Source: Candidatus Chloroploca sp. Khr17
Lineage (GTDB): Bacteria; Chloroflexota; Chloroflexia; Chloroflexales; Chloroflexaceae
NCBI RefSeq assembly: GCF_004138165.1
Contig: NZ_RYFF01000006.1
Location: 62,001-126,000 of the forward strand
DNA length: 64,000 nt
Direction of reading: 5' to 3'
This document shows, piece after piece, positions 38,719 through 47,009 of this stretch; position 1 is the first letter of the stretch, and every line of letters starts with the position of its first letter. The notes beneath the pieces are model-generated. The model did not search any database and was not told where the DNA came from. It was given only the letters and a program-made list of their open reading frames with translations. A program made the translations under genes and the position numbers.

Positions 38719-40472
38719 GGCGTAGATACCTGTCGCTTCACTTTCCAGGCAATGGCCCGCTCGATGATTTCGCGGGCGTTGGCGCGACTATGCTCGCTGG
38801 GGCTACCATCAAGCATGGCCGCGAGTTCATCAATCCGTTGGTGCTCATCAAGACGTTGAACCTGTGTACGCGTGCGTCCAGGCTCAAACTCTTTCCGAAT
38901 ATGGTAATGCGTATCGGCAAACGCAGCGACCTGTGGAAGGTGCGAGATGCAGATGACCTGATGATTCTCGGTGATCGTCCAGAGTTTCTGGCCGACCACC
39001 TGGCCAGCACGCCCGCCGACGCCAACATCAATTTCATCAAAAATGAGGGTTGCGACTTCATCGACCCGCGAGAGAATTGATTTCAGCGCAAGCAGCAAGC
39101 GGGCACTCTCGCCACCCGAGGCAATCTTCGCCAGGGGCTTGAGTGGTTCGCCAGGATTCGGCGCAATTTGAAATTCAACCTGATCAATGCCAGTGCGATC
39201 AACTGCCACCTTGCGCCCCGCCAACGGTATACCCTGCTGATCAGGGGTCTGCTTGATGCTGACAAAGAAGCGCACCTGCGGCATTGCGAGATCGCCCATC
39301 GCACCTTCGATACGCTGGGCCAGTTCATCACCAACCTCGCGTCGTCGCTGCGACAAGCGACTGGCAAGACTCCCCAATTCGGCCAGGGTTGCCGCCTCTT
39401 GTCGTTCAAGTTCGACAATATGCACCGCGCTATTTTGCAAGCGCTCAATCTCGGTCTCGGCATTGGCCGCCCGTTCGACCAGGCTGGCAAGATCGCCCCC
39501 ATATTTGCGCTGCAAATCACGCAGCACCGTCAACCGATCTTCGAGGGCATCAAGACGGCCTGGATCGGCATCAAGCCCGAGGCGGTAGGTACGCAGGGCA
39601 GCCGCCAAGTCTTCAAGCTGGTAATGCAACTCGCTCGCCGTCGTCGCCATACTCTCTACCGAAGGATCAAGGCGCGCCAGTTCGGCCAGATTACCCGCAA
39701 CTGTGGCGATCAACTCGATGATTGGACGACCAGGCGTACGTCCACCTTCGCGCCCCGCATACAGGTCGGCATACGCTTCCGTCGCCAACCCGGTCACCCG
39801 CGCCATATTTTGCACCACCTGCCGCTCACGCACCAGATCTTCTTCTTCACCCGGTCGCACCCTGGCGGCGGTCACATCCTCGATCAGAAAGCGCAACTCT
39901 TCGATTCGCGCCTGACGCTGGGCCTCGTTGCGCCGCAGATCAGCCAACTCATTGCGAAGACCGCGGAGGATCTGCACCTGGCTGGCAACCTGTTCGCGAA
40001 GGGAGAGCAATTCGCCAAAACGGTCAAGCATCTCGAGATGCGTTCGCGGATTAAAGAGCGAGAGGCCCTCGTGCTGCCCGTGGATGTCAATCAAGCGCCC
40101 ACCAAGCTCACGCAGCACCGCCGTATTGACCGCACGCCCATTGATCCGTGCGACACTTCGTCCTGACTCAGCACTGATCTCACGCACAACAATGACTTGC
40201 CCGTCATCATCATCAAGCAGATCATGCTCACGTAGCAGCGGGGCCACTTGGGGGCAATCGTCCAGGCTAAAGACACCCTCGATCCGCGCACGCGTGCAAC
40301 CCGCCCGCACAAATGTAACATCAACCTTTTCGCCCCGTAACATGCCCAGCGCATCAATAATAATTGACTTGCCCGCCCCGGTCTCACCGGTCAACACCGT
40401 AAAACCTTCACCAAGGCGAAGGTGTAGACGATCAATAATGGCAAAATCACGGATCTGCAGCTCAAGTAGCAT
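38715..40472 (-). CDS. recN: DNA repair protein RecN
   Basis: SMC-like repair ATPase of 585 aa. Walker A GETGAGKSIIIDAL is at 29-42; IDIHGQHE and coiled-coil arms follow; the signature is KIASGGESARLLLALK; Walker B is LIFDEIDVGVGG; the late VICISHLPQVAAFADTHYHI is RecN-typical. It holds broken DNA ends together in recombination repair. ATG 40472 gives the family-typical MLLELQIRDFAIID start. Its stop overlaps the start of a surface-polymer gene, an unusual functional pairing. Confidence 0.95.
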   Translation of the reverse strand: MLLELQIRDFAIIDRLHLRLGEGFTVLTGETGAGKSIIIDALGMLRGEKVDVTFVRAGCTRARIEGVFSLDDCPQVAPLLREHDLLDDDDGQVIVVREISAESGRSVARINGRAVNTAVLRELGGRLIDIHGQHEGLSLFNPRTHLEMLDRFGELLSLREQVASQVQILRGLRNELADLRRNEAQRQARIEELRFLIEDVTAARVRPGEEEDLVRERQVVQNMARVTGLATEAYADLYAGREGGRTPGRPIIELIATVAGNLAELARLDPSVESMATTASELHYQLEDLAAALRTYRLGLDADPGRLDALEDRLTVLRDLQRKYGGDLASLVERAANAETEIERLQNSAVHIVELERQEAATLAELGSLASRLSQRRREVGDELAQRIEGAMGDLAMPQVRFFVSIKQTPDQQGIPLAGRKVAVDRTGIDQVEFQIAPNPGEPLKPLAKIASGGESARLLLALKSILSRVDEVATLIFDEIDVGVGGRAGQVVGQKLWTITENHQVICISHLPQVAAFADTHYHIRKEFEPGRTRTQVQRLDEHQRIDELAAMLDGSPSEHSRANAREIIERAIAWKVKRQVSTP

Positions 40473-40537
40473 AAAAAATAGCACGCACAAAAGAGCTATG
40501 GATCACCACTAAAAAGCATTGTACCACAACGCCCCTG

Positions 40538-42613
40538 CTAATGCGTTTCTGCCTCTTTCCAGGTAGACACCCGATTGCGTCCGGTATACTTCGCATAATA
40601 GAGTGCCTGGTCAGCCCGCCAGATCAATTCACCCAGGGTCGTGAGATCGGGTTCAAGCGTTGCGACCCCAAAGCTCATTGTGATCTGCACTGGCCCACTC
40701 AACGTCTCAACGGGCATACGCTCGATGATCTGTCGCAAGCGCTCGGCAACCTGCATCGCCTCACTCAAACCGGTCTCTAGACAGACAATGATAAACTCTT
40801 CGCCGCCATAGCGGGCAACAATATCGAGTGGGCGTACCTGCTTAAGCGCTTTTGCTACGTGCTCCAGCACCTGATCGCCAACGGCATGGCTAAAGACATC
40901 ATTCACCCGCTTGAAATGGTCAATATCCATAAAGATCGCCGAGAGTTTGCCCCCATAACGCTGCACGCGCCTGAACTCGGTCTCGGCCAGTTCACTAAAC
41001 CGCCGCCGATTGTACAGCCTCGTCAGCGGATCAGTTCCAGCCAGCATATAGACTTCGCGGAAGAGCCGCCCATTCTCGAGGGCTGTGGCAACCTCATTGG
41101 CGAGCACCTGCATCATCGCTACCTGACTTGGCGTATATGTCTCTTCCTGCTTGCTTCCAAGCGTTAAAAGCCCGAGCAGATGCTCTTGATAAAGCAGCGG
41201 GAGACCCATCCAGCTCTTGAAACCTGTTACCAGGGGAAGCTCAAGCGACGCCATGGCCGCTGCATCAAGTATGAGCGGCATCCGACGTTGCATAATCTCG
41301 GCAAATGGGGGCTGTTCAGAACTGAACTCTTTACCAGTTAGTCTGGCTGTCCATTCAACAGGATGGGCAGAAACAAGGCGCAGGGTGTTCTCTTCCAATA
41401 AGAAAAGAAGCGACTGGTGGTTTGGCACTATCTTATCAAGCTGCACTAATACTTGATGTAACATCGCATCCATATCAACATTCGAGTTGAGATGGGCCAT
41501 CATCTGGCGCAGTTCTTCCGTCAAATCACGTTCACTCCGTAATGAGGATTCCGCCTCGCGCAACATCGAATAGGTGCGCGCATTAGCCAGGGCAAGCCCA
41601 CACTGATTGGCAATCGCCAACCCCAGGTTGAGGTATTGATTGCGATATTCGGGAAAGGTGATATGCCGTACCACCACCAGGCCAAAGGTCTCGTCGTGAT
41701 AGCGGATCCGCAGATAAAAGCCCTCTTCCTGAGGAATAAGCGCGTGATCACCCTCCATCGAGGCTAGTACCGGCGCAAGTTCACCGTGGCGTGCGGGCTG
41801 ATCGTGACCATCTTTGGCAAAAACAGCGACAATCTGATGACCCTGGATCTGGGCGTATTCTAGATTGTTACAGCCAAAGAGCATCGCAAACATATGGCGA
41901 ATTGCGGTAATGGTTGTTTCTTCTGAACGGATCTGCGAGAGATCAACCAGCAGATCAAAGGCCATCGCATATTCGGCAATTTTGCGCTTCGCATCTTGCA
42001 AGACGCTTTTCGTCTCGGTTTGTGATGTCTTGAGATACCATTCTAAAATGATCTTCGCCAGGTAGAGCTTGAGATAATCAAGCCCAATCGTCCGCACCCG
42101 GTACGGCAGGGCAAGATAGGCGGCAAATTCTTCTAACCTAGACAGCGCCTCGGGATCAGTCTCGGTATCAAGCAACAACAACTCTTCGACCGCCTCGTGA
42201 AAGTAGTCACGGGCGAGCATTTGATCAAACCCCCACGCATACAGATGCGCACGCCAAGCCCGCAACCAGCCCGGCGAAAGCAGGTAGGTGCCGTGTTTCG
42301 TTTCGGTGTCGATCAACTCTGGCCCGGCAAGCATGACCAGACAGTGGCTCAGATGAATCAACTGCGTCTGAGCGTCTAGCTTCGCCGGGAGTGCATCGGG
42401 TGTTGCCGCACATGCGCCAAGCACGATCAGATCAGTTCGTGACGAAGCAACTGGTCGTGCAAAGATCTGGTCGGTATGCTGCAACAATTGCGGTCGCCCG
42501 CAGGTCAGTGCATATGCTTCAACGGTTACAAAAGGATACCCAAGTTCACGGACAGCCTGCGCTACATCCTCATAATAGTGTCGACACACGCGCAGACAGA
42601 GCTTACCGTTCAT
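40538..42613 (-). CDS. Diguanylate cyclase with GAF domain and novel N-terminal sensor
   Basis: A 691-aa cytosolic signalling protein. Residues ~1-195 form a domain with Cys-rich start (MNGKLCLRVCRHYY) and YLLSPGWLRAWRAHLYAWGF, faintly like DUF1638, which elsewhere accompanies corrinoid methyltransferases. A GAF-like region (~205-340), a short coiled coil and a second GAF domain (~375-525) follow. The C-terminal GGDEF domain has RYGGEEF and an I-site RPLD five residues earlier, so it should make c-di-GMP with product inhibition. Its start overlaps the methyltransferase gene by 11 bp, making it part of the corrinoid operon. Confidence 0.85.
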   Translation of the reverse strand: MNGKLCLRVCRHYYEDVAQAVRELGYPFVTVEAYALTCGRPQLLQHTDQIFARPVASSRTDLIVLGACAATPDALPAKLDAQTQLIHLSHCLVMLAGPELIDTETKHGTYLLSPGWLRAWRAHLYAWGFDQMLARDYFHEAVEELLLLDTETDPEALSRLEEFAAYLALPYRVRTIGLDYLKLYLAKIILEWYLKTSQTETKSVLQDAKRKIAEYAMAFDLLVDLSQIRSEETTITAIRHMFAMLFGCNNLEYAQIQGHQIVAVFAKDGHDQPARHGELAPVLASMEGDHALIPQEEGFYLRIRYHDETFGLVVVRHITFPEYRNQYLNLGLAIANQCGLALANARTYSMLREAESSLRSERDLTEELRQMMAHLNSNVDMDAMLHQVLVQLDKIVPNHQSLLFLLEENTLRLVSAHPVEWTARLTGKEFSSEQPPFAEIMQRRMPLILDAAAMASLELPLVTGFKSWMGLPLLYQEHLLGLLTLGSKQEETYTPSQVAMMQVLANEVATALENGRLFREVYMLAGTDPLTRLYNRRRFSELAETEFRRVQRYGGKLSAIFMDIDHFKRVNDVFSHAVGDQVLEHVAKALKQVRPLDIVARYGGEEFIIVCLETGLSEAMQVAERLRQIIERMPVETLSGPVQITMSFGVATLEPDLTTLGELIWRADQALYYAKYTGRNRVSTWKEAETH

Positions 42614-43655
42614 TACTTACCCAGTCGAGCGGATACCGACCCCAGCGTTGTACCGCTTCACTGATCGCCAGCAATGTTGTTTCAGGTACCTGGAAAGGTA
42701 TTTCACCATGATTATCGGCGAGAATAAAGCCGCCCCCGGGCCCCGCCGCCGCAAGCGCCGCCTTGACGGCCACCTCAGCCTCGACTTCCGTCCAACGACG
42801 CATCTCAATCCCATTCAGATTGCCAAGCAGACTCACCCGGCCCGCGACCTTCTGCTTCATCAGGGCCAGATCTTCCTCGATACTGACCGCAACCGCCAGT
42901 GTCCCTGTCTGCGCAAAATCATCAAGCAGCGGCATGCAGCGCCCCGAGGCCACGTGGGTTGCGACCGGCCCTTTGATCCGTGCAATCACGTCTTTACTCA
43001 GGCGATGATCAAAGTCCAGATATTGTTCCCGCGCGACCACCGTGGTTGAGGCAACCGGATCAAAATAGCAGATGGCCGTCGCCCCGGCGTCAAGCTGCGC
43101 GTTGGCCCAGGCCACCGAAAATTCTGCATTGATCTGCAAGAGATGTTTGACCACCTCAGGCTGTTCGTACATCCACGTCAGGTACTGCTCGAAGCCCAGT
43201 TGCATCACGGGCAAGGAGAACGGGGCAATCACAACCCCAATGATCGGCATCGCCTCCTCACTGCGCGCACGCATCTGCCTGATCGCCTCGAGAACACGCC
43301 CAAGCACAGGTGAGCTTTCAACCGCAGGTGCTTTGAGCGTGCGAATCTCTTCCGGCTTGCGGATCATTGGCTCGCCTGCGTTGGCCGGACCATCATCGCT
43401 GAAGATTACCTCGCCCCCCCACGCCTCGACCTCTAGGGCCGCATAAAAAAGTGCGTAGAGGCAGTCGCTCTGATACTTGCGTGCCATCCGCAACTGACCT
43501 TCAGCCACATACTCGGCGTGCGCGAAATAGTCCCGCAACGACAGGCCCAGTTCACGTGCGCCATGCATCGTGACGAGCAGAAAGAGCGGCACCCGATCAG
43601 GTTCCTGATGCCCAAGCGTCGTCAAGACCCGCTCTAGTGAAGTCATAGCTGTCAT
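42603..43655 (-). CDS. Uroporphyrinogen decarboxylase/MtaA-family methyltransferase-like protein
   Basis: A 350-aa TIM barrel of the UroD/MtaA/CmuA superfamily, whose methyltransferase members pass methyl groups to or from a corrinoid protein. EPDRVPLFLLVTMHGARELG opens the fold; DAGATAICYFDPVASTTVVA and LLGNLNGIEM are typical. MtaA enzymes bind zinc by H-x-C-xn-C; here the sites read H-V-A and, at the second Cys, DNHGEIP, so the ligands would be His/Ala/His. Start and stop overlap the corrinoid-protein and GGDEF genes. Role in methyl transfer is likely, but the substrate is unknown. Confidence 0.78.
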   Translation of the reverse strand: MTAMTSLERVLTTLGHQEPDRVPLFLLVTMHGARELGLSLRDYFAHAEYVAEGQLRMARKYQSDCLYALFYAALEVEAWGGEVIFSDDGPANAGEPMIRKPEEIRTLKAPAVESSPVLGRVLEAIRQMRARSEEAMPIIGVVIAPFSLPVMQLGFEQYLTWMYEQPEVVKHLLQINAEFSVAWANAQLDAGATAICYFDPVASTTVVAREQYLDFDHRLSKDVIARIKGPVATHVASGRCMPLLDDFAQTGTLAVAVSIEEDLALMKQKVAGRVSLLGNLNGIEMRRWTEVEAEVAVKAALAAAGPGGGFILADNHGEIPFQVPETTLLAISEAVQRWGRYPLDWVSNER

Positions 43656-44302
43656 GCGGATGCCTCCAGGAAACTCGTCACCAGCGCAACACTATCCGAC
43701 GCCGTGCTGCCCATCGCATCGGCCCCGACCTCTTGCCAGAGCTGTCGGTCAAACCGGAACGGGGCACCACCAACTATGATTTTTGGTCGCCATCCTGCCG
43801 CATCGAGTCGCTGACGCACCGCTTTGACCTGCAATGCCGAGGGCAGCATCAACACCGAAATAAGCAAAATGGCAACCCGTTCACGCACAACTCTGGCAAC
43901 AAGATTATCGGTATCAATCCGACCATAATCGCTGACAACAAAGCCACCCGAGCGCAATGTCGCATAGACCATCCGCTTGCCCAGCATATGGTAGTCTTCG
44001 AGCACTGCAATCGCGATAACAGGTTGTCTTTGCTGCTGCACATTCGCCGCTGGCAAAAGCGTATCAACAATCTCTTCACAGATACGCCCACTCATATAGA
44101 CCTGGGCCAGCGATACGTCACCTTGCTCCCAGCGTTCACCAATCACTTCAAGCGCCGGCACAATGAGTTGCTCAACCATCATGACCGGACTCATCTCGGT
44201 CACAAGTTCTTCGAGCAGGCGCCGCACCTCAAGGCGATCAATGGCAAGCAAGGCTTCGAGAAATGCGTTGTGTTGTGCGCCAATGTCTCGTTCAGCCGTC
44301 AT
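43652..44302 (-). CDS. Corrinoid (B12-binding) methyltransferase carrier protein
   Basis: A 216-aa protein of the MtaC/MtbC kind. The N-terminal helical cap (~20-90) has the typical VEQLIVPALEVIGERWEQGD. The B12-binding Rossmann domain carries the DxHxxG motif in LEDYHMLGKRM, with the His that ligates cobalt, then VVSDYGRIDTDNLV, LLISVLMLPSALQ and KIIVGGAPFRFD. GAGAGG precedes ATG 44302; a longer frame runs through the leader but has no family sequence. First gene of the corrinoid-GGDEF operon. Confidence 0.87.
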   Translation of the reverse strand: MTAERDIGAQHNAFLEALLAIDRLEVRRLLEELVTEMSPVMMVEQLIVPALEVIGERWEQGDVSLAQVYMSGRICEEIVDTLLPAANVQQQRQPVIAIAVLEDYHMLGKRMVYATLRSGGFVVSDYGRIDTDNLVARVVRERVAILLISVLMLPSALQVKAVRQRLDAAGWRPKIIVGGAPFRFDRQLWQEVGADAMGSTASDSVALVTSFLEASA

Positions 44303-44320
44303 AAGAACCTCTCTCGTTGT

Positions 44321-44369
44321 GCTTTGCTGGACAACAAGCCAACTAAGCTGGCTTGTTGTCCAGCAAAGC
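44321..44369 (-). promoter_or_regulatory. 21-bp perfect hairpin in the leader of the corrinoid operon
   Basis: Arms 44321-44341 and 44349-44369 are exactly complementary. The hairpin ends 18 bases before the first ATG of the operon, beside its ribosome site. No T-tract follows, so it may control translation or RNA stability, or act as an attenuator. Confidence 0.5.
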
Positions 44370-44482
44370 AACCAGGTCTGGGAACCGCAGGCCCATAGGG
44401 ATGTCATAGGCATGGTACACGCCGAGCGCCCTCCCGTTGGAAGAGAGACAGTTATCCCCGGGAAAGATCCCTTCACTGGGGC

Positions 44483-44575
44483 GTCAAGGATAATCTGCCC
44501 TGCAGCTGATCGCGTTTGTAACCAGTACTCAAGAGTCAAGGATAATCCGCCCTAAGGCTGATCTTGTTTGTAACC
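44483..44575 (-). repeat. Two tandem 41-nt repeats at the start of the corrinoid leader
   Basis: Units 44483-44523 and 44535-44575 agree at 35 of 41 positions and repeat with a 52-bp period. Each contains GTCAAGGATAATC, GCCCT, GCTGATC and GTTTGTAACC blocks. The upstream unit starts close to the predicted transcription start. They could be operators or paired RNA elements. Confidence 0.6.
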
Positions 44576-44581
44576 GGGTTT

Positions 44582-44587
44582 ATTATA
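44582..44587 (-). promoter_or_regulatory. Putative -10 box of the corrinoid operon
   Basis: TATAAT on the minus strand. Initiation about seven bases on would begin the RNA at the first 41-nt repeat and give a leader of about 270 nt. No clear -35 hexamer. An overlapping TATACT on the plus strand (44584-44589) could serve the divergent gene. Confidence 0.4.
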
Positions 44588-44674
44588 CTCATCACAGGTC
44601 AGGCGTCCGGAGCGACAGACGTGTCCCTGACAGATACCTCTAATAACCCCACTGTCGTCCCCTTATACCCCCAA

Positions 44675-44694
44675 CGGCTGCCATATGGCAGCCG
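44675..44694 (+). other. 20-bp perfect palindrome ahead of the anchored propeller-like gene
   Basis: CGGCTGCC and its complement meet around ATAT, giving a self-complementary 20-mer. It ends about ten bases before the AAGGAGG ribosome site of the next gene, so it could form an RNA hairpin affecting initiation or be an operator. Confidence 0.4.
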
Positions 44695-44714
44695 TTTCCA
44701 CATGAAGGAGGCAT

Positions 44715-45689
44715 ATGAGACGTTCCCGCTTACCATCCGGGCAGCAGCCCAGACCACGGCATAACTCCCGACGTACCATGCTGGCAATGGGGATGCTTTT
44801 GGCCCTCGGAACGCTTCTTTTGATCGTTATGTTGGTCACGAGGTCGCCAACAAACCAACCGACTGCCACCGTCCCGTTAGCAACCGACGGATGCCGCGGG
44901 TTGCCCGCCTTTGCCACTACCTTCACTGCCGAAGCCGGCGGTACGCTAGCGCTGGCAACCGATCGCACCGAACAAGGCCTCGTTCTGCTCACCGACGCAA
45001 CCGTCTACCAGCACCCAACCTGGGACGATGCCGGGTACCTTGGGGCCATGGCCTATGATCAAATGGGCAATGTCTATGTGGCCCCCACTCCGCGGATTTC
45101 ACTGCAAGATAACCCCCTGGCAGGCGTGACCACCCTCTGGCGCGTTGATAGTGCCACCGGGACAATGCATCCCTTTGTCACCCTCGCAGGCGAGGCTGGC
45201 GAGCGCAATCCGTTTGGGGTTCTGGGCCTGACCTATGCCTGTGGGCTTGACCGCCTCTTCGTCGGCACTGTCATTGGCTCAACCCCTGGCGAAGAACGGG
45301 GCGGCATCGTTGCACTCGATCGCGCTGGGCAACAGACCAGCCTGGTGACGGGCCTTGATGTGATGGCGGTGCTCGTTGTGGCAACCCCCGATGGCTATGA
45401 TCTCTATGCGGGCCTGGCACGCAGCCCTGATCTTGTTGCACTTCCGCTCGATGCCAGCGGAAACCCCAGCGGGCCACTGCGCTCCCTCCTCGATCTCACC
45501 ACCGCCGGAGCCACCGCCGGCGAACGTGCCCGCAAAATGCGTCTCGTTGGCGACGAACTCGTTGTTGATCTGGTGCCCTTCAACTTCTCATTGCAATCGA
45601 GCGCCACCGGCAACCCCCAGGCTCGTCAAGCCACCTGGGGGTGGGATGCCGATCAGGGCACCTGGGTCGTTCGTGCCTCGGCACGGTAA
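44715..45689 (+). CDS. Membrane-anchored protein, probable beta-propeller
   Basis: A 324-aa protein. Residues 1-20 are basic, and a single helix follows (MLAMGMLLALGTLLLIVMLV, about 22-41), so the rest should lie outside the membrane. The outer part has repeated strand-turn blocks (YLGAMAYDQMGNVYVAPTP, FGVLGLTYACGLDRLFVGTV, AVLVVATPDGYDLYAGLARS) as in SMP-30/NHL-like propellers. No enzyme motif is recognised. AAGGAGG gives a strong start. Divergent from the corrinoid operon. Confidence 0.65.
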   Translation: MRRSRLPSGQQPRPRHNSRRTMLAMGMLLALGTLLLIVMLVTRSPTNQPTATVPLATDGCRGLPAFATTFTAEAGGTLALATDRTEQGLVLLTDATVYQHPTWDDAGYLGAMAYDQMGNVYVAPTPRISLQDNPLAGVTTLWRVDSATGTMHPFVTLAGEAGERNPFGVLGLTYACGLDRLFVGTVIGSTPGEERGGIVALDRAGQQTSLVTGLDVMAVLVVATPDGYDLYAGLARSPDLVALPLDASGNPSGPLRSLLDLTTAGATAGERARKMRLVGDELVVDLVPFNFSLQSSATGNPQARQATWGWDADQGTWVVRASAR

Positions 45690-45696
45690 ATGGTTT

Positions 45697-45716
45697 GTAC
45701 CGTACGTTTTCTGGTG
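45697..45716. repeat. Solo left end of a family-B element
   Basis: GTACCGTACGTTTTCTGG, here just after the propeller gene, matches the left terminal repeat of the family-B elements at 20772 and 18349. No matching right end is found downstream, so this may be a decayed or truncated copy. Confidence 0.35.
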
Positions 45717-45787
45717 TTTTGCAAGCCCGGGTGCGCGGGCCTCCCGCCCGCTGTTGCTCCCGAAGCGATCGTCCCGCCCGCGCACCC

Positions 45788-45941
45788 AGGGCGATGGCAT
45801 CTTCCGTGTATACATTCCCCCAAGGGCACCCGCAAGGGGTGCCCGTACACCGGGTCCGAACCCCGGCCGGTAGGGGCACCCCTTGCGGGTGCCCTGATAG
45901 CGCGTCTTTTTGTCTCCGGTTTTGTATGATGCAATCGCCCT
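45788..45941. mobile_element. MITE-like inverted-repeat element, family A, copy 2
   Basis: A 154-bp element with the same ends as copy 1: AGGGCGATGGCATC at 45788-45801 (one mismatch) and GATGCAATCGCCCT at 45928-45941. The 10-bp direct repeat CCCGCGCACC flanks it at 45777-45786 and 45943-45952. The interior differs: two oppositely oriented GGGCACC-type hairpins near 45822-45845 and 45872-45895. No ORF. Confidence 0.7.
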
Positions 45942-46043
45942 ACCCGCGCACCTTTGCGTAGGTGGGCTTCACCCTTCGCGTCTTCGCGTCTTCGCGTGAG
46001 CTTATTTGAAAAGTATTGGGTCTAGCCCGAGAGAAGAGCGATC

Positions 46044-47009
46044 TTACGGGCGCCGTCGCGGGAGGCGAAAGGTGAGCAGGTTGCGGCGTTCGGGTTCAGG
46101 TTGGTGCAAAAAGGCATCTTCACCGGGGCGCAGGCCGGGCCGCGTCTCAAGCCAGCCTTCGCGTTGCTCGCGTACCCGTTGCAGCAACGCCTCGATGTCC
46201 TCGGCGTCGCCCTCGTCAACCTGATCGCGGACTTCCAACAGAAAGCTGATCATCTCGTTGATCCAGCGCTTGAGGCCGTCGCGATTGGTCATCAGGATAT
46301 CGCGGTGCATTTCAGGGTCACCCGAGGCGAGCCGCGAAACGTCGCGAAAGCCCGTCGCCGCCAGGGCCGCCATCTCTTTCCAGGCTGGGCTGCGCCCGGT
46401 GATCTCGACCAATCCGACCGAAAGCAACATAGGCAGGTGCGAGATACCAGCCACATAGACATCATGCTCTTCAGGGTCGATATAGTACGGTTTGGCTCCG
46501 ACCGTCCGCACCATCGCCTCAACCGCTTCAAGCGCCGCCTGAGGGGTGCTCCGCCCGGTGGTTAAACAGTAGATCGCTCCATTGAAGAGCTCAGGATCGG
46601 CGGCTTTTGCCCCGGCTTTCTCTTTGCCTGCCATTGGGTGCCCACCCACATAAGCCACCCCCGACGGCAAGGTTGCGGCCCACCGGGACACTTCGGCCTT
46701 GGTACTCGCAACATCAGTGACAACCGTGCCTGACGCCAGCAGCGGGCCAAGCTGGGCAAACACCTCGCGGATCGCACGCACCGGGGTTGCCACCACAATA
46801 ATCTGAGCGTCACGCACCGCCTCGGCCAGCGTCCGCGCCTCGCGATCAATCGCCAGCCGCCCGCGTGCCTCCTTGACCGCCCGCTGATCACGATCCCACC
46901 CGACAACTTCCAGGGCCCCCAGCGGCGACTCGCTCGCCTCAGCCGAACGCAACGCCATGCCAAGCGACGTGCCAATCAATCCCATCCCGATAATGCTTAT
47001 CCGAACCAT
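46044..47009 (-). CDS. tyrA: Prephenate dehydrogenase
   Basis: A 321-aa TyrA making 4-hydroxyphenylpyruvate for tyrosine. It has the NAD-binding IIGMGLIGTSLGMAL at 6-20, VVATPVRAI, VTDVASTKAEV, GGHPMAGKEKAGA with the catalytic His, and the dimerisation region ISHLPMLLSVGL. No ACT or chorismate-mutase domain is attached; the last 15 residues are Arg-rich. It is the final gene of a minus-strand run aroC - membrane protein - tyrA. Confidence 0.93.
   Translation of the reverse strand: MVRISIIGMGLIGTSLGMALRSAEASESPLGALEVVGWDRDQRAVKEARGRLAIDREARTLAEAVRDAQIIVVATPVRAIREVFAQLGPLLASGTVVTDVASTKAEVSRWAATLPSGVAYVGGHPMAGKEKAGAKAADPELFNGAIYCLTTGRSTPQAALEAVEAMVRTVGAKPYYIDPEEHDVYVAGISHLPMLLSVGLVEITGRSPAWKEMAALAATGFRDVSRLASGDPEMHRDILMTNRDGLKRWINEMISFLLEVRDQVDEGDAEDIEALLQRVREQREGWLETRPGLRPGEDAFLHQPEPERRNLLTFRLPRRRP

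Follow-up and report, generated by a model that had tools for sequence, protein, structure and literature searches.

Why would a bacterium encode a corrinoid protein of the methyl-transfer type, together with its UroD-family partner, in front of a diguanylate cyclase? This question is raised by a locus of Candidatus Chloroploca sp. Khr17, located at positions 40,538 to 44,302 of a 64,000-nucleotide stretch of contig NZ_RYFF01000006.1 (positions 62,001 to 126,000 of its forward strand), which was analysed as a whole and is called the window here. A preceding examination of the letters alone (the sequence-only reading) had proposed that the corrinoid pair senses rather than catabolises. Its tie to signal transduction was borne out, as a signal transducer gene was found beside every UroD ortholog examined at an identity of at least 39% (12 of 12 in the window's family, 4 of 4 outside it), while neither the cyclase nor its DUF1638 domain proved to be universal. 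We thus consider it probable (about 0.65) that the three genes encode a soluble cytoplasmic signalling module, in which the corrinoid protein and a zinc-less UroD barrel would form the input and cyclic di-GMP (c-di-GMP) would be the output in this particular genome.

The trio stays together while its genomic surroundings change

All three genes lie on the minus strand. The first one (43652..44302, ATG at 44302) encodes a corrinoid, i.e. B12-binding, protein of 216 amino acids, the second (42603..43655) a UroD-family protein of 350 amino acids with an MtaA/CmuA-like fold, and the third (40538..42613) a protein of 691 amino acids with the domain order DUF1638-GAF-GAF-GGDEF. The corrinoid and UroD genes overlap by 4 bp (ATGA) and the UroD and cyclase genes by 11 bp, exactly as the sequence-only reading had it. 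By sequence, the three genes form an operon, whose corrinoid/UroD pair is inherited as a unit. Purifying selection acts on each of them, with ratios of nonsynonymous to synonymous substitution rates (dN/dS) of 0.06-0.27 across the trio in three Chloroploca genomes; over the DUF1638 domain, the nearest named loci are those of C. mongolica (93% identity) and C. asiatica (91%).

Our search for the module covered Chloroflexota, and other phyla were covered by a single degenerate-pattern scan, made with the DUF1638 domain of the window and reaching only close relatives. DUF1638 (PF07796) was found in 13 of 82 genomes of the order, and wherever its gene formed a long frame (10/10 genomes), the UroD and corrinoid genes were located directly before it, at identities going down to 35-60%. 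The three-gene synteny, proposed earlier as a check, is thus kept in ten genomes as corrinoid-UroD-transducer. When the UroD protein was used as an independent query, 12 genomes of the window's family were found at more than 50% identity. The transducer is DUF1638-GAF-GAF-GGDEF in nine of them, and DUF1638-GAF-histidine kinase-receiver (DUF1638-GAF-HisKA-HATPase-REC) in the remaining three (G038, G019 and G017, the last with a broken DUF1638). As to the flanks, none of 67 proteins was shared as an ortholog between genera, and only generic stress and receiver domain matches were seen there. Therefore, the trio stays together while its surroundings change, and it is because the order is conserved and the flanks differ between genera that we treat it as a unit. 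Pairwise distances of the three genes correlate as well (r 0.92-0.96), a value that shared ancestry alone would also raise.

One could suppose that an unrelated cyclase came to lie next to a corrinoid pair by chance. No point in favour of this idea was found, and it is refuted by the conserved synteny: ten genomes have the same order, with overlapping genes, different flanks and a swap of the output at the same position, which leaves it practically no probability. The sequence-only reading had named relatives without the cyclase as the sign of such an accident; there were none without a signalling protein, though the cyclase itself turned out to be only one of several outputs.

How variable the output is becomes apparent outside the family. 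Among 400 Chloroflexota genomes there were four further UroD relatives (39-56% identity) in three other families, each encoded after a corrinoid gene and before a soluble kinase gene. The transducers, GAF/PAS-histidine kinase-receiver in G325 and GAF-histidine kinase in G108, G189 and G161, all lack DUF1638. Thus, the corrinoid-UroD pair is the constant part of the module and the transducer the variable one, interchangeable, to judge by these genomes, between a GGDEF protein, a hybrid histidine kinase and a plain histidine kinase. In the UroD tree the kinase versions are basal and GGDEF occurs only in the window's family, so that the c-di-GMP output is probably a later replacement. Around the kinase version of G038 (L033 1-9272) there are PP2C/RsbU-type phosphatase genes, of which two also encode receiver domains; a partner-switching output is suggested for this version.

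UroD-family proteins of the module lack the MtaA zinc site

The second gene of the operon had been described as a UroD/MtaA-type methyltransferase. Its family assignment stands (PF01208, 184 bits), and the protein is encoded beside one with PF02607 and PF02310, i.e. it is a UroD-fold protein with a separate corrinoid protein. The MtaA type, on the other hand, had to be rejected, both by the score against the MtaA/CmuA model TIGR01463 (120.9 bits vs a cut-off of 235.4) and by the absence of zinc ligands. The zinc of MtaA is held by H-x-C plus a later C. When these positions were located by alignment to 4AY7, the window protein was found to have H-V-A where MtaA has H-x-C, and DNHGEIP where it has PGC. 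Thus, it shares superfamily and overall fold with the methylcobamide:coenzyme M methyltransferases MtaA and MtbA (4AY7, E 2e-16), but unlike them it is devoid of zinc ligands and scores far under the family cut-off.

The 15 full-length UroD proteins of signalling modules form one clade (support 100/100), and the H-x-C...C site is missing from all 15. It is kept in 6 of 6 non-signalling UroD methyltransferases sampled from Chloroflexota, and no kinase or GGDEF gene occurred in the flanks read around these six loci (1.5 kb per side for four of them).

Catabolic partners are missing from most carriers in the window's family

If the pair served catabolism, one would look for a RamA-type activase, in the operon or elsewhere in the genome, along with a partner of the MttB or MtrH type. 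Neither RamA nor an acceptor methyltransferase was found in the three-gene module, MtrH being the acceptor family that was searched for. Genome-wide, MttB and MtrH were not found in the window's genome, nor in any of the twelve family carriers; in the family at large, MttB occurs in only two unrelated genomes and MtrH in 0 of 41. RamA is absent from 8 of the 12 family carriers (G002, G017, G019, G032, G033, G038, G039 and G040), several of which are 99-100% complete. Its presence in the family is confined to seven genomes having a second corrinoid operon, plus G031, and in all four extra-family carriers it is located elsewhere in the genome. What the window's genome has, then, is RamA in another operon only. 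That most family carriers lack RamA speaks against a module made for continuous Co(I) methyl cycling, and the ordinary catabolic partner which the sequence-only reading had named as counting against its proposal did not come to light. Its statement that no substrate-specific methyltransferase or activase is present fared less well: it is correct at the locus, yet there is an activase 56 kb away, and the part on the methyltransferase is insecure because the UroD family includes substrate-specific members, namely CdmB, MtvB, OdmB and MtoB (PMC13222342).

Several observations weigh against a sensory module. That one RamA/RACo activase is encoded on the operon's own contig, in a separate corrinoid operon, and with it methyl cycling may be possible in this genome. 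G019 has a convergent corrinoid gene and a UroD gene broken up into two frames, and in G017, where DUF1638 is broken, a corrinoid gene was not found in the 14 kb read. The extra-family transducers do without DUF1638, so a DUF1638-specific read-out is not general. Moreover, neighbouring genes do not imply physical contact between their products.

A serious rival, although we rate it as unlikely, is that the pair is a metabolic corrinoid/UroD methyl-transfer enzyme and the signalling gene is co-transcribed with it, thereby coupling c-di-GMP or expression to its use, with the transducer sensing another signal via its own GAF domains. This rival is serious because of RamA in the window's genome and because the second corrinoid operon also ends in a GGDEF gene of its own; seven genomes of the family share the order corrinoid-UroD2-RamA-GGDEF. 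GAF domains are generally ligand-binding, and zinc-less corrinoid methyltransferases of the UroD family do exist, such as CdmB, proposed to be a substrate-selective scaffold which guides haloalkanes to cobalt (PMC13222342). Nevertheless, the distribution of RamA, MttB and MtrH given above speaks against a metabolic pair, as does the lack of a methyl acceptor enzyme in the module. Zinc-site loss matches the association with signalling exactly within the sample, and a metabolic pair should be free-standing somewhere, while none without a transducer was met above 39% identity.

Three loci bear on RamA. The second corrinoid operon of the window's genome (L039 6104-10600, contig C148), about 56 kb from the three-gene operon, consists of genes of an SDR, a corrinoid protein, UroD2, RamA and a GGDEF protein, which follow each other on one strand; of the zinc site, UroD2 retains the H and a single Cys (H-x-A...C). 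In G161 there is a corrinoid-UroD-RamA set, and the short flank that was read contained no GGDEF gene. In G031, a genome of the same family from which the module is absent, MttB, RamA and a standalone DUF1638 lie on one contig stretch (L029), which is the classical catabolic arrangement.

The corrinoid protein retains its cobalamin ligands and has no photoreceptor signature

In agreement with the claim of a DxHxxG corrinoid protein, Pfam recognises in the product of the first gene a helical cap (PF02607) and a Rossmann B12 domain (PF02310), and the motif reads DYHMLG; cap, Rossmann domain and D-x-H-x-x-G are together what characterises a methyltransferase corrinoid protein. Its nearest solved relatives are MttC and MtmC. 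D103, H105, G108 and W58 of the cap are invariant in 11 orthologs. Because the DxHxxG ligands are kept in every copy of the module, its corrinoid proteins probably bind cobalamin.

None of the 15 module corrinoid proteins checked has the cap sequence W-x9-E-H, the signature of B12 photoreceptors (CarH), and the window protein has W-x9-V-Y instead. The signature is present in the CarH-like protein of the same genome and in the B12 protein of contig C79. CarH-type light sensing is thus unsupported by the cap motif, and a light sensor of the CarH or photocobilin kind, driving c-di-GMP in a phototroph, seems to us an improbable explanation of the locus. It would suit a host group that is phototrophic and a genome with other candidate B12 light sensors (contigs C136 and C79); the cap tryptophan of photoreceptors is present too, and B12 photoreceptors fused to cyclases are known, as in the photocobilin-diguanylate cyclase AbDPcob (PMC10979010). 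However, the nearest relatives are methyltransferase corrinoid proteins, and light sensing would leave the UroD partner without a role. On C79 itself (L040 2157-4272), the gene of the W-x9-E-H protein overlaps a GGDEF gene (370 aa), and these two genes, the third B12-GGDEF pair of the genome, form a candidate B12 light sensor with c-di-GMP as its output.

The cyclase begins with a DUF1638 domain and a GAF-like domain missed by Pfam

By its motifs, the third gene is predicted to code for a diguanylate cyclase. Its GGDEF domain (residues 526-681, 40571..41038, minus strand, like the other domains) scores 145 bits against PF00990 and 170.6 bits against TIGR00254 (cut-off 37.4). The GGEEF site and the RPLD I-site, both previously called intact, are present; GGEEF is intact in 9/9 GGDEF orthologs and the RxxD I-site in 7/9. 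In front of it is a GAF domain (residues 380-512, 41078..41476; PF01590, 51 bits) which is present in the GGDEF versions. The protein had been presented as GAF-GGDEF, and both domains are indeed there. What had been overlooked is a further GAF-like domain (residues ~196-370, 41504..42028), missed by Pfam and supported by tblastn and phmmer. It became visible in an AlphaFold2 model of residues 1-370, with a predicted local distance difference test (pLDDT) score of 88, as a GAF fold which follows an alpha/beta DUF1638 domain; in VIA-align, the fold (residues ~208-350) matches DosS GAF-A with Z 14.0 and a root-mean-square deviation of 3.0 over 117 residues. This domain is retained in the kinase-type transducers of the window's family.

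The first 195 residues (42029..42613) had been considered weakly similar to DUF1638. The family is right, but the similarity is not weak, as residues 62-182 match PF07796 with 49.1 bits vs a gathering cut-off of 27. The domain was modelled with confidence (pLDDT 90), but the AlphaFold check proposed earlier gave no fold relative: the best VIA Z was 7.5, to unrelated chains, which is below a meaningful level. LacI/periplasmic-binding-like and PrpR sensory domains stood near the top of that list at the same sub-threshold level and were not assigned.

Cys68 and Cys91 of DUF1638 are invariant in 45 sequences, and Cys10 occurs in every sequence having the N-terminus. Because these cysteines are conserved alike in standalone, cyclase-fused and kinase-fused members, the comparison suggests that DUF1638 kept its original chemistry on becoming a sensor input. 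In Phaeobacter inhibens, DUF1638 is needed for B12-dependent methionine synthesis and its gene adjoins a B12 gene (PMC5764234); in Ruegeria pomeroyi, the DUF1638 protein is more abundant on glycine betaine (PMC12478193). These proteins, associated with corrinoid reactivation by RamA, have the same three cysteines conserved as the window domain. They are, however, free proteins in B12-dependent methyl transfer, of uncharacterised biochemical role, whereas DUF1638 of the window type stands at the N-terminus of a cyclase or kinase, with RamA usually absent. At L127 7286-9520, a frame of 744 residues has its DUF1638 match at the C-terminal end, and this may be a fusion or a mis-called start.

A possible mechanism of B12-based sensing

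If the module is a sensor, the following order of events can be envisaged. The UroD barrel would admit or bind a small effector and bring it to the corrinoid protein's cobalt; this effector might be a methyl or alkyl donor, by comparison with UroD scaffolds of the CdmB type and their haloalkanes. A change in cobalt ligation or redox state would then alter the docking of the corrinoid protein on the transducer, possibly via DUF1638, which is a known genetic partner of B12 proteins and has three conserved cysteines, and via the adjoining GAF domain. A GAF-GAF rearrangement would switch GGDEF dimers on or off, and in the kinase versions GAF domains would relay the change to the kinase.

As to what would be sensed, given a sensor, a methyl or alkyl ligand is our leading candidate, with odds that nonetheless fall short of even. 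Less probable, and about equally so, would be a barrel-bound ligand that gives up no methyl group, and cobalt redox state or oxygen; light would be the least probable state of all. In the complete version, a pair derived from methyltransferases would have become a sensor: its barrel would trap a compound that is methylated or alkylating, the resulting alkylated cobalt would be the signal, and a swappable DUF1638/GAF transducer would read it into c-di-GMP or a phosphorelay. This version is put forward tentatively, and we rather doubt it as a whole.

Were the sensory module confirmed, it would mean that bacteria use repurposed C1 chemistry to detect either a methylated compound or the state of their corrinoid pool, and the uncharacterised DUF1638 would gain a testable role as a reader of a B12 protein. 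Should corrinoid alkylation truly be the signal, this would be a categorically new sensing chemistry.

Upstream features and related loci

Two 41-nt direct repeats (44483-44523 and 44535-44575, spaced by 52 bp) were revealed by a repeat search upstream of the operon, before a divergent gene. They are conserved in C. mongolica and C. asiatica and are candidate regulatory sites. No cobalamin riboswitch or other Rfam RNA reached the gathering threshold in the scanned region (40000-46500). Just before the corrinoid start codon, at 44320-44370, there is a near-perfect 25-nt inverted repeat with arms 1 nt apart, falling in a stretch which is missing from both sister species.

Dehalococcoidaceae-like genomes (L112, L114, L115, L117, L118 and L120-L123) encode a DUF1638-PAS-histidine kinase and a response regulator near reductive dehalogenase genes; these cytosolic kinases thus carry DUF1638, as does the window cyclase. 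Directly ahead of these kinases lies the gene of a small, degenerate protein that is distantly related to the B12 fold (PF02310 at 1.6e-4 in one; probability 92 in a profile comparison) and lacks the cobalt-binding His motif. Kinases beside reductive dehalogenase genes have been described as cytosolic, with an unknown signal (PMC13390414). Pairs of a B12-fold protein and a DUF1638 transducer may therefore be a recurring design, and such pairing is a possible answer to the question of what these kinases sense.

Comparison with known systems

No system of this design was known to the sequence-only reading, and in full-text literature (subscription papers being outside the scope) we likewise found no description of a corrinoid protein with a diguanylate cyclase, or of B12 with a kinase and UroD. 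B12-dependent signalling as such is already known from CarH and the photocobilins; it is the corrinoid methyl-transfer pair as a signalling input that is, as far as we found, undescribed.

Besides the MtaA/MtbA enzymes and the free DUF1638 proteins discussed above, three kinds of known systems come close. The UroD-fold barrel with a separate corrinoid protein is shared with CdmB, MtvB, OdmB and MtoB; those have an acceptor methyltransferase plus an activating enzyme as partners, whereas the window module has a signal transducer instead. MsmS and RdmS, two sensor kinases of Methanosarcina acetivorans, respond to heme or thiol redox, and the methyltransferases to which they are linked are catabolic. 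Their link to corrinoid methyltransferases appears as a citation in PMC11784639. Unlike there, it is the corrinoid pair itself that is inherited with the transducer here, and no catabolic partner accompanies it. Finally, a B12-binding domain controls a GGDEF cyclase in AbDPcob and another output in CarH. There, one polypeptide combines the B12 domain, which has the W-x9-EH light signature, with the output or with a globin-like bilin domain, whereas the window B12 protein is a separate one without such a signature, has methyltransferase corrinoid proteins as its relatives and is accompanied by a UroD barrel. Cobalamin is thus known as a light-sensing cofactor, and the locus described here would add a methyl-transfer pair as an input to c-di-GMP and two-component signalling.

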